This document shows positions 1-6,026 of a stretch of DNA of 29,555 nucleotides, piece by piece. Made by a program: the position numbers and the translations under genes. The stretch covers positions 1 through 29,555 of IMG/VR virus record IMGVR_UViG_3300028027_000170. The stretch is one strand, 5' to 3'. This DNA comes from a virus. The notes below the pieces were generated by a model that worked only from the letters and a program-made list of their open reading frames with translations, was not told the DNA's origin and ran no database searches. The number at the start of each line of letters is the position of its first letter. Position 1 is the first letter of the stretch.

Positions 1-319
1 GGGTATAAGGGATAAAGCTATATAACAAATGTATAACTGACCTGTTCTGGGTACGAGTGGTCACTCTATTAGCTAATGCGCCCTGACAGCTGTTTAAAAA
101 AACAAAAAAGCCGTTTTAATCTGTATCCTGGTGGAAGAATTCATTATCGTTTTCAAGGCGCAAATGAATCAGGCTACAGACTAAAACGGCTTCGTTATCT
201 TCCACGACAACAATTTAATTATGCCATCGTCTGTTCCGATGTGTCAAGGTCTAAAGCTAACCTGGTGAAACACGACCCTTATCATTGTTTGTTTCATGCT
301 TGCTAAAGGCTTAATCAGT
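1..319. other. Non-coding region at window start
   Basis: No convincing gene is seen here. A 76-codon open frame (76-306, plus strand) has no Shine-Dalgarno site, a composition unlike the other proteins, and overlaps the hairpin at 108-192. Small palindromes are visible: gagtg-gt-cactc at 55-66 and acagctgt at 86-93. The stretch is AT-rich and lies downstream of the minus-strand HNH gene. It may hold control signals or untranslated RNA. No tRNA cloverleaf or T-loop consensus was found. Confidence 0.6.
108..192 (-). terminator. Long-stem hairpin followed by T-tract (minus-strand terminator-like element)
   Basis: Bases 108-124 and 176-192 are inverted repeats of 17 bases with one mismatch. Read as minus-strand RNA the mismatch becomes a G-U pair, so the stem is fully paired. 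On that strand the second arm runs straight into TTTTTTGTTTTTTT. This fits an intrinsic terminator for the HNH gene ending at 320. The 51-base loop is far larger than usual and contains a second inverted repeat (attcatt at 139-145, aatgaat at 163-169), so a structured RNA is an alternative. Confidence 0.5.
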
Positions 320-838
320 CTAATGCAACTCAGGCCAGATTTGTTGCCAGTTAGGGATTTCTTTTCTTGACCATTTACCGTTTGATTTCTTTTCTAAATC
401 GGCAGCTAACAAAACTAATTTATTGTTTGGCATACCGTTGTTTCGCCATTGCGACACAGCTGGTGGGCTAATTTGACAAATTTTAGCAACTGCAAATGTG
501 CCGCCCAAACAATCAATAATTTCTGTTGCATCCATTGGTGCAAACAATATTTTTTTAGTTACCGCTTGTCTTTTCTTGTTTAACTTATCTTGCATATTGT
601 CTTTTTGAGTTCCTAAAAACAAATGGTCGGGGTTAACGCATAAAGGCACATCACATTTGTGTAAAACAAACATTCCTGAAGGTATTTCGTGTTTATGCAA
701 CACAAAAGATACCCTGTGAGCATAAATTTCATCATGGTACATAAATTGACCATATTGATAATTGTTTGCGCCAGTCCAAATCCAACATCCATCTGGTTGT
801 TTTTGAACTTTAATCATGAATTTTTCTATGTTTTGCAT
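320..838 (-). CDS. HNH endonuclease fused to YdaS/Cro-like helix-turn-helix domain
   Basis: This is a 172-residue protein counted from the ATG at 838. Residues about 5-85 match the HNH_3-type endonuclease pattern: GCWIWTG (17-23), AHRVS (40-44), VLHKCD (58-63) and CVNPDHLFLGT (67-77). These contain the metal- and DNA-contacting His, Asn and Cys positions. Residues about 104-172 resemble YdaS/Cro-family regulators: IIDCLGGTFAVAKICQIS, then PPAVSQWRNNGMP and a terminal IWPEL. The codons upstream of 838 (GTG at 862, ATG at 853) read MQQMLRYL, which is not part of the HNH pattern; the ribosome site is weak for all starts. It is the only minus-strand gene and is divergent from the early operon, where a Cro or CI gene often sits. 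HNH plus a separate DNA-recognition domain is typical of free-standing homing endonucleases, but a YdaS/Cro-like partner is unusual. A regulatory role is inference. Confidence 0.85.
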   Translation of the reverse strand: MQNIEKFMIKVQKQPDGCWIWTGANNYQYGQFMYHDEIYAHRVSFVLHKHEIPSGMFVLHKCDVPLCVNPDHLFLGTQKDNMQDKLNKKRQAVTKKILFAPMDATEIIDCLGGTFAVAKICQISPPAVSQWRNNGMPNNKLVLLAADLEKKSNGKWSRKEIPNWQQIWPELH

Positions 839-888
839 AAGGTATCTTAACATTTGTTGCACAAAACCCCAAACAAATATTTAACCAC

Positions 889-917
889 TTGCAATATGTG
901 TTTAGTTGGCTTAATAT
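889..917 (+). promoter_or_regulatory. Early promoter for the recombination operon, with shared motif
   Basis: TTGCAA (889-894) and TAATAT (912-917) are separated by exactly 17 bases, a reasonable sigma-70 promoter pointing at the Erf gene at 962. The segment 899-917 (TGTTTAGTTGGCTTAATAT) matches 3159-3177 at 17 of 19 bases, and both lie 43-44 bases before the first start codon of an operon. The motif includes an imperfect dyad, TTTAG-N4-CTTAA, that could be an operator. Confidence 0.5.
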
Positions 918-961: not shown

Positions 962-1528
962 ATGAAAGAACTAGCAAAAGCATTAGTCACGGCTCAGGCA
1001 GCAATGTCACACGCAGCCAAAGATAGTAAAAATCCCCACTTTAAATCTGCATACTCAAGTCTGGCATCAGTCATTGACGCTGTGCGGCCTGCTCTGTCCG
1101 CTAACGGTTTAGCCTTTGTGCAGATGTTGCATACGGCAGACGGTGGCGTGGCAGTCGAAACAGTCCTTATCCATGAATCAGGTGAGCAACTGTCTTGTGG
1201 CACGTTGTTTATTCCTGCAAGTAAACAAGATGCACAAGGCTACGGTTCAGCAATTTCGTATGCAAAACGCTACAGTTTGCAAAGTGCGCTTGGTATTGCG
1301 TCAGAAGATGATGACGGTAACGCAGCAACCAAAGCACCGCCAGTCAAAGTCATTGAGAAACCAAAAGGCATTGAGCTAGACAACACCATTGCTCAAATGG
1401 CATCAGCGGTTAGTTACGAAAGTTTGAAAGACATATTTAGGGCAGCATGGACTATTTGTTTGAAAGAGCAACAGATTCCATTAAAGGCCGCATACGATCA
1501 ATTTAAAGCAAACTGGGAACAACAATAA
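962..1528 (+). CDS. erf: Erf-family single-strand DNA annealing protein
   Basis: The protein has 188 residues. It should anneal complementary single strands in phage recombination or genome circularisation, as P22 Erf does. The ERF signature is clear: NPHFKSAYSSLASVIDAVRPAL near residues 24-45, then QGYGSAISYAKRYSLQSALGI and the acidic SEDDDGNAA near residues 92-122. The C-terminal 60 residues are a variable tail. The start follows the AGGTGCATAA leader and is the first gene after the promoter at 889-917. Its stop overlaps the SSB start (TAATG). SSB next door and a PD-(D/E)XK exonuclease 0.8 kb downstream fit a complete annealing pathway. Its small size is normal for phage Erf homologues. Confidence 0.93.
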   Translation: MKELAKALVTAQAAMSHAAKDSKNPHFKSAYSSLASVIDAVRPALSANGLAFVQMLHTADGGVAVETVLIHESGEQLSCGTLFIPASKQDAQGYGSAISYAKRYSLQSALGIASEDDDGNAATKAPPVKVIEKPKGIELDNTIAQMASAVSYESLKDIFRAAWTICLKEQQIPLKAAYDQFKANWEQQ

Positions 1529-1968
1529 TGGCAAACGATCTTAACCGCTGCGAGTTTATTGGGCGCTTGGGCAAAGACCCTGAAGTACGTTACACCGCTG
1601 ACTCTAATGCAATCTGTAATTTCTCAATTGCGGTAGGTTATAAGACCGCAACCAAAGAAACGACAGAATGGGTCAGGATCACAACGTTTGGCAAGTTGGC
1701 AGGAATATGTGCCGATTACCTAAAAAAAGGCTCACAGGTCTTTGTGGCGGGTCGTATGACTACTCGCAAGTGGGTTAACAAAGATGGCGTGGATCAATAC
1801 ACAACTGAAGTGGTTGCTGACCAGATGCAGATGCTTGGTGGTCGGCCTGCGGAGGATGCCACGCCAGTTGCTGCGCCTGCTAAACCTAAGTCAGATGGTG
1901 GTTATCGTGCAATGAAAGAAGGCACGTTTGTTCCAATGGAGTCTGACTTTGATGATCCACCGTTCTGA
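1528..1968 (+). CDS. ssb: Single-stranded DNA-binding protein
   Basis: This is a 146-residue bacterial-type SSB. Residues 1-110 form the OB fold, with the typical opening NRCEFIGRLGKDPEVRYT, then FSIAVGYK, WVRITTFGKLAGICADYLKKGSQVFVAGR and a final beta strand ending EVVADQMQMLGG. A flexible linker leads to the acidic tip DFDDPPF, the conserved tail that recruits partner proteins. It coats single strands during replication and recombination. The start overlaps the Erf stop, and its own stop overlaps the next ATG (TGATG), which implies translational coupling. The intact acidic tail suggests that it can also contact host replication proteins. Confidence 0.95.
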   Translation: MANDLNRCEFIGRLGKDPEVRYTADSNAICNFSIAVGYKTATKETTEWVRITTFGKLAGICADYLKKGSQVFVAGRMTTRKWVNKDGVDQYTTEVVADQMQMLGGRPAEDATPVAAPAKPKSDGGYRAMKEGTFVPMESDFDDPPF

Positions 1969-2111
1969 TGACTCAAACAGAAGAAGCAATACTTATTTCT
2001 TGGAGATTGCAGCAATGGTACGAAGGCATGGTTTTAGACACTAGAGCCATGCAAGACCTACAGGATGCAATCGAGATGCTTAAAACATTAGCAAAACAGG
2101 TGAAAAAATGA
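1968..2111 (+). CDS. Small hypothetical protein, early operon
   Basis: This 47-residue frame sits between SSB and the next gene with overlaps at both ends: its ATG shares bases with the SSB stop, and its TGA lies within the following ATGA. The product is predicted to be helical (ISWRLQQWYEGMVLDTRAMQDLQDAIEML) with a basic end. No family is recognised. The tight packing and lack of an alternative frame support it as a real gene. It could be a small partner of SSB or of the exonuclease, but only position suggests that. Confidence 0.6.
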   Translation: MTQTEEAILISWRLQQWYEGMVLDTRAMQDLQDAIEMLKTLAKQVKK

Positions 2112-2305
2112 CTACAGAATATGCTTTCCCGCATGAAAACAACCATACTTACAAAATGACTGGAATGAAATTGCGGGATTATTTTGCTGCAAAAGCGATG
2201 CAAGCAATTGCGGTGGAATCGTTAAAACAAAATTTTGGAGATTTAAAATTATTAACAAAAAATGCGTATCACATAGCTGACGCAATGATGGAGGCACGGA
2301 AATGA
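2108..2305 (+). CDS. Conserved small phage protein
   Basis: The 65-residue product contains MKLRDYFAAKAMQAIA followed by a helix ending YHIADAMMEARK. This pattern (LRDYFAAKA...AYxxADAMxxAR) recurs in small proteins of many phages, usually close to recombination or replication genes; its function is not known to me. It overlaps the previous gene by ATGA and ends in the ATGA that starts the exonuclease gene. A C-terminal helix rich in Ala, Met and Arg suggests protein-protein or nucleic-acid contact. No catalytic motif is visible. Confidence 0.75.
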   Translation: MTTEYAFPHENNHTYKMTGMKLRDYFAAKAMQAIAVESLKQNFGDLKLLTKNAYHIADAMMEARK

Positions 2306-3036
2306 TTATTAAATCAGCAGACTCAGAAAGTGGTCATTGGTACGCAGCTGACGGTTCGCCAGCGTACAAAATCATTGGCAAGAACGGAAAAGAACGCAAC
2401 ACAACGGTTCGTGACGCAAGAGAACTCAAGCTAGTACCGTCGGTGACTACGGTTTTGGGATTGGTTGCCAAGCCTGGCTTATCAAACTGGTTGCAACAAC
2501 AAGTATTACTGGCTGCGCTGACGTTACCACGCATTGCAGGCGAAACAGAAGAAAACTGGCTAGAACGGGTTATGTCAGATAGCAAGAGTACAGGCCGTGA
2601 CGCTATGGATCGTGGCACACAAATGCATGGGGTGCTTGAGCGTTTTTACCGTGGCGAACAAGACGATTACCCTGTTTACGTTAACCAGGTTGATGCGTCA
2701 ATCAGAATCCACTTTGGACATGACCAGACTTGGGAGGCAGAACGATCTTTTGCTTATGAGGGGTTTGGCGGCAAGGTGGATTTGATTGCTGAGAACATCG
2801 TGATTGACTTTAAGAGCAAAGACAAGCTTGACAAGGTTGTGCCGTACCACGAACAATTGATGCAACTGGCAGCGTATCGTGTTGGTCTTGGAAAACCCAC
2901 AGCCAGATGCGCTAACGTGTTCTTTACTGCTGAAGGTGACGTAAAACTGATCGAACATTCAGAGGATGATTTGGCTTCTGCATGGGATTGCTTTCAGTAT
3001 TTATTAGCGTTCTACAAGCGTAAAAACAACCTATAA
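2302..3036 (+). CDS. PD-(D/E)XK exonuclease (RecB/Cas4-like)
   Basis: This 244-residue nuclease carries the motifs of phage RecB-type exonucleases. A His in GTQMHGVLERF (about 104-114) is followed by E147 in WEAERSF, D160 in GGKVDLI, D169 and K171 in VIDFKSK, and Q188-Y192 in QLAAY. These are the metal-binding and QxxxY elements of the fold. It probably resects double-stranded ends to make the single strands that Erf anneals, as exonuclease/annealing pairs such as lambda Exo/Bet do. It overlaps the preceding gene by ATGA and is the last gene before the terminator at 3074-3096. The lack of cysteines around the active site argues against a Cas4-type iron-sulfur cluster. Confidence 0.9.
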   Translation: MIIKSADSESGHWYAADGSPAYKIIGKNGKERNTTVRDARELKLVPSVTTVLGLVAKPGLSNWLQQQVLLAALTLPRIAGETEENWLERVMSDSKSTGRDAMDRGTQMHGVLERFYRGEQDDYPVYVNQVDASIRIHFGHDQTWEAERSFAYEGFGGKVDLIAENIVIDFKSKDKLDKVVPYHEQLMQLAAYRVGLGKPTARCANVFFTAEGDVKLIEHSEDDLASAWDCFQYLLAFYKRKNNL

Positions 3037-3139: not shown

Positions 3140-3177
3140 TTAACACCTATGCTTTTATTGTTTAGATAGCTTAATAT
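3140..3177 (+). promoter_or_regulatory. Second early promoter region with shared motif
   Basis: TGTTTAGATAGCTTAATAT at 3159-3177 matches 899-917 at 17 of 19 positions and lies 43 bases before the ATG at 3221, nearly the same spacing as in the first operon. A possible -35/-10 pair is TTAACA (3140-3145) and TAGATA (3163-3168) with a 17-base spacer. By analogy with the first operon, TAATAT (3172-3177) could instead be the -10 box. The imperfect dyad TTTAG-N4-CTTAA is kept. Confidence 0.5.
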
Positions 3178-3200
3178 TAGTTATCGCAACAGGCGATCAA

Positions 3201-3221
3201 CCACGATAAAAGGTACATAAA
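3201..3221 (+). repeat. Direct repeat leader, copy A
   Basis: A 21-base sequence beginning CCACGATAAAAGGTACATAA occurs here and again, identical, at 3306-3326. Each copy ends at a start codon (3221 and 3327). It includes the AGG ribosome site and the AGGTACATAA element related to 952-961. Confidence 0.85.
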
Positions 3222-3950: not shown

Positions 3951-4243
3951 ACCAAGTTGCCCGTAACACCGATCCCGCCACCAGTTGGGCTGCTGCTGAC
4001 TCTGCAAAGTCTTTAGCAGCTCAACACGCCACGATTATCATCCAAGCCTTATGCAAGTATGGGCCACAAGGAAAAGACGGTATAGCCACGATTACAGGAC
4101 TTGATGGCAATCAGGTTGCTAGGCGGCTTAGTGAATTAGAACGCAATCATGAAATCCTGCTAACTGGGCGCAACGTTCAAAGCAAGTCTGGCAGGGCTGA
4201 ACGGGAATGGAAGGTTATGCCAAAACAGATGGATTTGATATGA
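3947..4243 (+). CDS. Winged-helix (MarR-like) phage protein
   Basis: The likely start is the ATG at 3947, overlapping the previous stop as ATGA, rather than a longer frame opening at 3878 within the membrane-protein gene. The 98-residue protein opens ARNTDPATSWAAADSA, a motif common in small phage DNA-binding proteins, followed by a helix (QHATIIIQALCKYGPQG), a recognition-helix-like ITGLDGNQVARRLSELER and a wing (ILLTGRNVQSKSGRAEREW). The arrangement matches winged-helix proteins found near phage replication or methyltransferase genes. It is likely a DNA-binding accessory or transcription factor; the target is unknown. Confidence 0.75.
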   Translation: MNQVARNTDPATSWAAADSAKSLAAQHATIIIQALCKYGPQGKDGIATITGLDGNQVARRLSELERNHEILLTGRNVQSKSGRAEREWKVMPKQMDLI

Positions 4244-5397
4244 ATAAAATCATATTTGGTGATTGTAGAGATACGATGCGCCAGTTAGCGGCAGATGGCG
4301 TAAAGGTTCAAATGTGCGTGACTAGCCCACCTTATTACGGATTGCGTGATTATGGGCATAATGGACAAATTGGGTTAGAAGAAACGCCAGAGCAATACAT
4401 TCAGGCGATGGTTGAGGTATTCCGTTGCGTCAAAGACATACTGGCTGATGACGGTGTGTTGTGGGTAAACATTGGAGATAGTTATTACAACTATAGACCT
4501 GGCAAAGGGCAAGCCTTAGTTAAACAATCGGTTTCAAACACGAGTCAAGATTTGCCTGAAAACTGTGCAAGAAGAGGTAACAAATTAAAAGATTTAAAAG
4601 AAAAAGACCTAATTGGCATACCTTGGATGCTGGCTTTTGCTTTGCGTGCTGACGGTTGGTACTTACGCCAAGACATTATCTGGCACAAGCCAAACCCTAT
4701 GCCTGAGTCTGTCACAGATCGCTGCACCAAAGCTCATGAATATATTTTCTTGCTGTCAAAATCCCAGAAGTATTTTTATGACAACGAGGCAATTAAAGAG
4801 CCAAGCGAACATCCTGAAGATAATAGAAAATCGAGGGTTAACACAAGTACCGCAAAAGATTTTCAAAGAGATGTTGGCAACAAATTGGCGGTTGGTGACA
4901 AAACATATCCATTTAGAAATAAACGCAGCGTATGGACAGTTAATACAAAGCCCTATAGCGGCGCACATTTTGCTGTGTTTCCTGAAGAATTGATTGAACC
5001 TTGCATATTGGCAGGAACAAGTCAACGAGGGCATTGCCCTAAGTGCGGCGTTAGATGGTCAAGACAAGTTGAGCGAGTGATTTCGCAATCGGTTGAATGC
5101 CCAAAAACTCAATTGGCTCACGAAGCGAGAGGCGGTGTTGGAAAACCTACAGGAACAGTTGGGAAATCAGGTGGTGGAAGAATAAATGGGTATACAACAA
5201 CTATGGGATGGGAATCGAATTGCGATTGCGGAGTCGATCCCGTTCAAGACATTGTGCTTGACCCATTCATGGGAAGTGGCACAACAGCGCAAGTTGCTCA
5301 AAAATTAGGGCGCAAGTATCTCGGCTGTGAGTTAAATCACAATTACAAAGCCTTGCAAGATCAACGAGTTGCTCAAACGTCTTTGGAATTAATATGA
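4240..5397 (+). CDS. Orphan DNA methyltransferase, N4-cytosine/N6-adenine type
   Basis: The protein has 385 residues from the ATG at 4240, which overlaps the previous stop. Motif IV, TSPPYYGLRDYG (S29-P-P-Y32), precedes motif I, DPFMGSGTT (about 341-349), the order of beta-class amino-methyltransferases. A probable zinc ribbon lies between them: CPKCG at 266-270 and CDCG at 328-331, also seen in related phage enzymes. It transfers a methyl group from S-adenosylmethionine to an exocyclic amine of adenine or cytosine. SPPY alone does not decide which base. No restriction partner is nearby, so protection from host restriction is the likely role. An alternative upstream start at 4207 is less likely because it lacks coupling. 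Confidence 0.93.
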   Translation: MNKIIFGDCRDTMRQLAADGVKVQMCVTSPPYYGLRDYGHNGQIGLEETPEQYIQAMVEVFRCVKDILADDGVLWVNIGDSYYNYRPGKGQALVKQSVSNTSQDLPENCARRGNKLKDLKEKDLIGIPWMLAFALRADGWYLRQDIIWHKPNPMPESVTDRCTKAHEYIFLLSKSQKYFYDNEAIKEPSEHPEDNRKSRVNTSTAKDFQRDVGNKLAVGDKTYPFRNKRSVWTVNTKPYSGAHFAVFPEELIEPCILAGTSQRGHCPKCGVRWSRQVERVISQSVECPKTQLAHEARGGVGKPTGTVGKSGGGRINGYTTTMGWESNCDCGVDPVQDIVLDPFMGSGTTAQVAQKLGRKYLGCELNHNYKALQDQRVAQTSLELI

Positions 5398-6026
5398 GTT
5401 ACATCATTGGAAACTTACCGCCTATTAAATGCTTTGTACGGCGTGAGTATTTGTACAACTTTGAGAAAGGCCACGGTGAGCTTGAACCTTGCATCTGGGT
5501 AAGCATTAAAGCAATTCGTGGGCAAGTATTCCGCATTGAAAGTTTGTTGCCACGGTATGGCGCTTTGTACGACAAATTGCCTATACAAGCTTATGTGTGG
5601 ACTAAAAATCATAAAAATTTGGAAGTTGACGTATTGCAATTGTGGGATTGCATGGGTTACAGGTTCACAGTCCATGAAAAGATTGGCTTGCGTAACTTTG
5701 GGGTTAAATTCCTAGGCAAAGATAAAGAATGGCATTTTGGCAAATACTTGTTTACTGTAGATTTTTGTGCCGACGGCATGGATGTAGACACAGGATTTAC
5801 TGAAGTTGCAGAGGAACATAAATCATTTAACTTTATCCGGTTAGATAATGGTCAGTTTGCAGCACAACCCAACAATCGTTGTCTTTGGTACGATCAGTCG
5901 TTAATACCGGCTAAGACTGACTTTCCTGATTTCCAAGCATCACGACATATTTGGACAGTAGACGGGTCACGCAAGTGGTCAGCCGGTGACGATTGGTTTT
6001 ACGACATTGGGGAACGGCATGAGTGA
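5394..6026 (+). CDS. Conserved phage protein of unknown function
   Basis: This 210-residue protein shows a pattern I recognise from many phages but whose function I do not know. It opens LPPIKCFVRREYLYNFEKGHG, then EPCIWVSIKAIRGQ, RYGALYDKLPIQAYVW and a C-terminal region with RCLWYDQSLIP and WTVDGSRKWSAGDDWFYD. It is rich in aromatic residues and looks mostly beta. It is coupled to the methyltransferase by ATGA, and homologues often sit next to phage methyltransferases or replication genes. No catalytic signature is evident. Confidence 0.8.
   Translation: MSYIIGNLPPIKCFVRREYLYNFEKGHGELEPCIWVSIKAIRGQVFRIESLLPRYGALYDKLPIQAYVWTKNHKNLEVDVLQLWDCMGYRFTVHEKIGLRNFGVKFLGKDKEWHFGKYLFTVDFCADGMDVDTGFTEVAEEHKSFNFIRLDNGQFAAQPNNRCLWYDQSLIPAKTDFPDFQASRHIWTVDGSRKWSAGDDWFYDIGERHE

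Follow-up and report, generated by a model that had tools for sequence, protein, structure and literature searches.

One freshwater phage carries a gene in which an HNH_3 nuclease is joined to a complete P22-type Cro repressor in one uninterrupted frame of 172 aa. The gene was found at positions 320-838 of the minus strand in IMG/VR record IMGVR_UViG_3300028027_000170, the whole analysed stretch of which (29,555 nucleotides) is called the window hereafter. This HNH-Cro fusion is genuine and sits at a precise position, and no second example is known so far. It is read here, with a probability of roughly 0.55, as a self-regulating repressor with a homing nuclease attached, born from the in-frame insertion of an HNH_3 homing endonuclease at the start of an early cro gene.

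The fusion was composed of the nuclease (residues 1 to ~90), a floppy linker (93-99) and the complete Cro (102-172). In profile searches, HNH_3 matched residues 39-83 (E 1.1e-11; 44.7 bits, cut-off 24.8) and PHROG 1872 (endonuclease) covered residues 4-95 (5e-31). The C-terminal part matched several transcriptional regulator PHROGs and, with the whole protein as query, P22_Cro over residues 105-137 (26.2 bits); the isolated Cro half (102-172) gave E 1e-6 and 29 bits against P22_Cro (PF14549), slightly under the cut-off of 30.2. A profile built from the family of the Cro half retrieved P22 Cro 1rzs (3e-4), XPH1 and the Cro of Xylella prophage Xfaso 1. AlphaFold2, supplied with a 32-row alignment, produced two confident domains (mean pLDDT 84), namely an HNH domain at residues 1-90 and a helical Cro domain at 102-152, separated by a disordered linker (93-99, pLDDT <50); single-sequence AlphaFold reached a pLDDT of 36. 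A Foldseek search of the PDB with the fusion model placed I-HmuI at the top, followed by Cro proteins, with every E above 0.001. An upstream GTG at 862 is an unlikely start, because the conserved cro operator separates it from the ATG at 838.

The earlier note on this DNA had recognized an HNH_3 nuclease in the N-terminal half and a YdaS/Cro regulator in the C-terminal half of a single frame. The open 172-aa frame, the HNH_3 and PHROG 1872 matches, P22_Cro and the AlphaFold2 model bore this arrangement out, and searching the two halves separately by profiles and structure, as the note had proposed, recovered HNH_3 and a P22-type Cro as two confident domains. The Cro part of its C-terminal label stood, while YdaS (3e-5 on the Cro half) fits less well than P22-type Cro. 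A YdaS toxin/antitoxin identity of the Cro half was rejected, since P22_Cro scored higher and the locus and operators suit Cro.

The Cro half (residues 102-172 and the stop codon, 320-535, minus strand) was delimited by this profile and by its identity of 70-85 % to a stand-alone cro gene of ~71 aa in relatives, the first methionine of which aligned with M102. Relatives were taken from IMG/VR, and their Erf proteins were mostly 76-100 % identical. Their stand-alone cro occupied the slot divergent from erf, in agreement with the earlier placing of the window gene where Cro would lie; the divergence from the early operon that had been claimed was equally confirmed, erf, ssb and a PD-(D/E)XK exonuclease (identified by Pfam and PHROGs) being located at 962-3036 on the plus strand, opposite the fusion. 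The same stand-alone gene was present in MW202520.1 (UOF78188.1), annotated as 'putative antitoxin'. Orthologues scored 28-36 bits against P22_Cro, passing the cut-off in eight out of 15 genomes searched. Cro stood alone in about a hundred relatives fetched. None of the cro loci of relatives displayed an in-frame HNH upstream (134 entries, of which 60 were distinct, since two scans brought in many contigs twice). When 60 cro genes were placed in a tree, that of the window fell inside the family and clustered with L142 and L156 (support 100/96).

The recognition-helix stretch SPPAVSQWRNNG was unaltered in the window Cro. Residues invariant in 59 relatives were replaced at three positions (N2D, T3A and V22I) and R21Q was also observed; these replacements could affect binding. 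Two of the formerly invariant positions carrying replacements lie beside the old start, as expected if that segment became linker. Pairwise comparison of the window cro with its relatives gave a dN/dS of ~0.1, a value mostly reflecting the time before the fusion. Codon changes on the window branch (10 silent and nine replacement, some of which belong to sister branches) suggest a weaker constraint than between relatives.

The cro ATG of relatives comes immediately after TGTTAAG-N7..9; at the equivalent place in the window, TGTTAAGATACCTT precedes the HNH ATG. The HNH ATG thus stands where the cro ATG of relatives stands, right after the cro operator, which indicates an insertion of 303 bp at the start of cro. 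This insert, encoding the HNH_3 half and linker (residues 1-101; 838 to 536, minus strand), separates the cro operator from the reading frame of cro and was absent from the same locus in all relatives fetched. It was found at the centre of a tract without close match in any of them (381-900, approximate bounds, ~480-520 bp). According to a 40-bp block scan, the best identity to any relative was 0.00-0.93 inside this tract versus 0.97-1.00 in both flanks, which matched some relative at 97-100 % from about 41 to 360 and from 921 onwards. The last 63 nt of the window cro were identical to a relative; the first 150 nt reached just 80-87 %. The pattern is possibly that of a homing or co-conversion tract, and ordinary mosaic recombination could produce the same.

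Residues H60, N68 and H72 of the HNH motif were intact and aligned with those of homing endonucleases. Among 44 HNH relatives that were read, most displayed a short HTH after a KLT motif and some a CKRGH zinc module, while none carried a convincing Cro after the HNH domain. This usual accessory module, common though not universal, was missing from the fusion and Cro was found in its place; the suspicion that the C-terminal half might be a common HNH accessory module thus did not hold. HNH_3 genes were present in seven out of 15 genomes of the family at varied places, which shows that they move within it. A different HNH gene (40 % identical) was located between ssb and erf in three relatives, on the minus strand (L008:4025-4270, L025:3730-3975 and L031:4016-4261).

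The fusion gene lies at a divergent early control region that contains dyad operators. A weight matrix made from the erf-side site of relatives gave 26.0 for operator O_erf (TATTAAGCCAACTAAA, 901-916, minus strand), which lies upstream of erf and was present in all relatives read, and its maximum, 27.2, for O3 (TATTAAGCTATCTAAA, 3161-3176, minus strand), upstream of the next early genes. The next-best site in the window scored 8.9 and 10 shuffles did not exceed 11.6. These are the sites of the only two copies in the window of the 16-bp motif TATTAAG-N4-CTAAA. The third operator, O_cro (TTAAGATACCTTAT, 837-850, minus strand), is cro-type and abuts the HNH start codon, occupying the same place as in relatives with respect to the cro ATG. 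Both regions in which binding had been proposed to be tested (880-961 and 3140-3220) hence contained one strong family operator, and the site at 837-850 had been omitted.

The 16-bp motif was found in 15 out of 15 genomes searched, usually in exactly two copies; in almost every near-complete relative, the second lay at a distance of 2.0-3.3 kb from O_erf. The reversed control pattern gave no match in these 15 genomes. Exceptions were one genome with a single copy and one with three, due to its apparently repeated ends. The operator core TTAAG-N4-CTWAA resembles the P22 c2 operator CATTTAAGATATCTTAAATA (PMC9976882). A sigma-70 consensus promoter scan of 300-1000 gave no match at threshold and, consequently, promoter positions are not claimed.

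The fusion was the sole P22_Cro-type gene in the window record, which is shorter than most relatives searched, so that a gene may be missing from it. Neither an HTH_3 repressor, nor an S24 repressor, nor a tyrosine integrase was matched in the window record and 14 relatives, some of which may be incomplete, and these records gave no sign of a CI-type partner with which Cro would form a lysis-lysogeny switch. In this phage family, the role of Cro seems confined to that of a lytic early repressor. Degenerate DNA patterns and protein or alignment scans, which required exact peptide or codon patterns, revealed no second HNH-Cro fusion in IMG/VR, GTDB genomes, phage records and plasmids, collections that may lack near copies of the window record; the matches obtained were unrelated or ordinary HNH proteins. 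The list of proteins with both domains called for by the earlier note is limited, among collections scanned by exact patterns, to the window fusion itself. No report of such a fusion was found in the open-licence papers searched.

Just downstream of cro, a conserved structured RNA was observed on the minus strand (95-250; MFE -65.9 kcal/mol, z -8.0), with a TTGACA-N18-CATAAT-like sequence before it and a T run after it. It displayed a long stem and a hairpin whose loop pairs into the stem, forming a pseudoknot. In an alignment of 22 sequences, 98.4 % of cells were paired and 18 pairs displayed two-sided changes; the pseudoknot helix was 100 % paired, with five out of six pairs covarying. Rfam gave no match at gathering threshold, and sub-threshold matches look like chance. 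The element is probably an undescribed phage small RNA. An ORF of 76 aa at 76-306 (plus strand), antisense to it, recurs in L017, and its conservation probably reflects the structured RNA rather than a protein. A gene at 5394-6023 (plus strand) adjoining a DNA methyltransferase (4207-5397) matched PHROG 3704, labelled 'ferredoxin' (E 1.4e-75).

The following course of events is proposed. A free-standing HNH_3 homing endonuclease would have entered the early cro in frame at its start codon, whereby a whole Cro protein replaced the usual C-terminal DNA-binding module of the endonuclease and the cro promoter came to drive expression of the fusion. Operators of the TTAAG-N4-CTWAA type at the promoters of cro, of erf and at 3.2 kb would still be bound by the Cro half; the fusion would thus remain the early repressor and repress itself. 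In co-infecting relatives lacking the insert, the same tethering would keep the nuclease half close to the cro/erf control region, and a nick or break there, repaired from the fused allele, would amount to homing. The domain make-up, orthology, insertion point, operators and divergent tract are established, and DNA binding, cleavage, homing and autorepression by the fusion are steps that we infer. A guided homing nuclease and a recruited regulator had been opposed in the earlier note; these two roles need not exclude each other and both may be true. That the operator code conserved across the phage family aims the nuclease at co-infecting relatives, while the fusion runs early transcription of its carrier, is put forward tentatively, at less than even odds.

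The combined reading, repressor and homing nuclease in one, is favoured by the orthologous cro at the locus, the HNH ATG following O_cro, the unaltered recognition helix and operators scoring far above chance, and further by the sole Cro in the record, the intact H-N-H residues, the divergent tract, the mobility of HNH_3 genes and the precedent of I-TevI. Counted against it were the single example from one virus record, the replacements in Cro, the weaker constraint on the window branch and a tract that possibly results from ordinary mosaicism. No cleavage site was identified and, since the carrier's operators have themselves remained intact, something must keep a nuclease tethered to them from cutting its own genome. 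These last two points would be accommodated if the fusion served as Cro only, the HNH half being a domesticated or idle N-terminal extension such as a DNA-clamping or spacing domain. The conserved operators and recognition helix and the absence of another Cro in the record agree with this explanation, which is nevertheless considered unlikely: HNH motif residues and fold are intact, whereas drift should have eroded them unless the fusion is recent.

Conversely, the Cro half might merely target the nuclease, repression being lost or irrelevant. Domain shuffling among phage homing endonucleases is documented, and swapping an accessory HTH for another DNA-binding domain would be typical of their modularity (PMC10448857); the substitutions in the Cro half would fit as well. 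However, the operators of the phage's own genome are intact and it would lose its conserved early repressor, which renders a pure homing element rather improbable. A recent, non-selected in-frame capture without function of its own would account for the single example in the collections searched but hardly for an insert placed precisely behind the operator, at the start of cro, 172 open codons and intact catalytic and recognition residues, and is regarded as very unlikely. An assembly chimera might be suspected because the fusion is known from one virus record. It would, however, need two junctions, one precisely at the start of cro and one behind the operator, and the divergent tract reaches into both flanks and matches no relative fetched; an artefact is thus hardly credible.

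If the combined reading is true, early gene regulation and selfish spread are joined in one protein, and a homing endonuclease has gained both a promoter and a target code through fusion to a repressor. Since close relatives keep the ancestral stand-alone cro, a before/after comparison is readily available and the origin and consequences of the fusion are directly testable. Within the phage family, the stand-alone P22-type Cro (e.g. that of L012 or MW202520.1) is an orthologue of 71 aa with the same slot and the same operators; it differs by the lack of the HNH half, and its start is the methionine equivalent to M102. Free-standing HNH_3 homing endonucleases (PHROG 1872; 44 read) display an HNH domain ~40-53 % identical to that of the fusion, but this is followed by a KLTxxxV...ELAxxFGVS HTH, a CKRGH zinc module or nothing instead of Cro. 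I-HmuI, an HNH enzyme (1u3e), was the best overall fold match in the PDB (E 4.7e-3), although it is intron-encoded, is 15 % identical over the alignment and has a C-terminal part unlike that of the fusion. I-TevI of phage T4 binds its homing site as well as an operator and autorepresses (PMC3943268, PMC2988022). It is likewise a nuclease with a C-terminal DNA-binding domain doubling as operator autorepressor, binding and cleavage being putative for the fusion. I-TevI nonetheless belongs to another nuclease family (GIY-YIG), is located in an intron and uses a DNA-binding domain of its own, in contrast to the fusion, which carries the early repressor of the phage.
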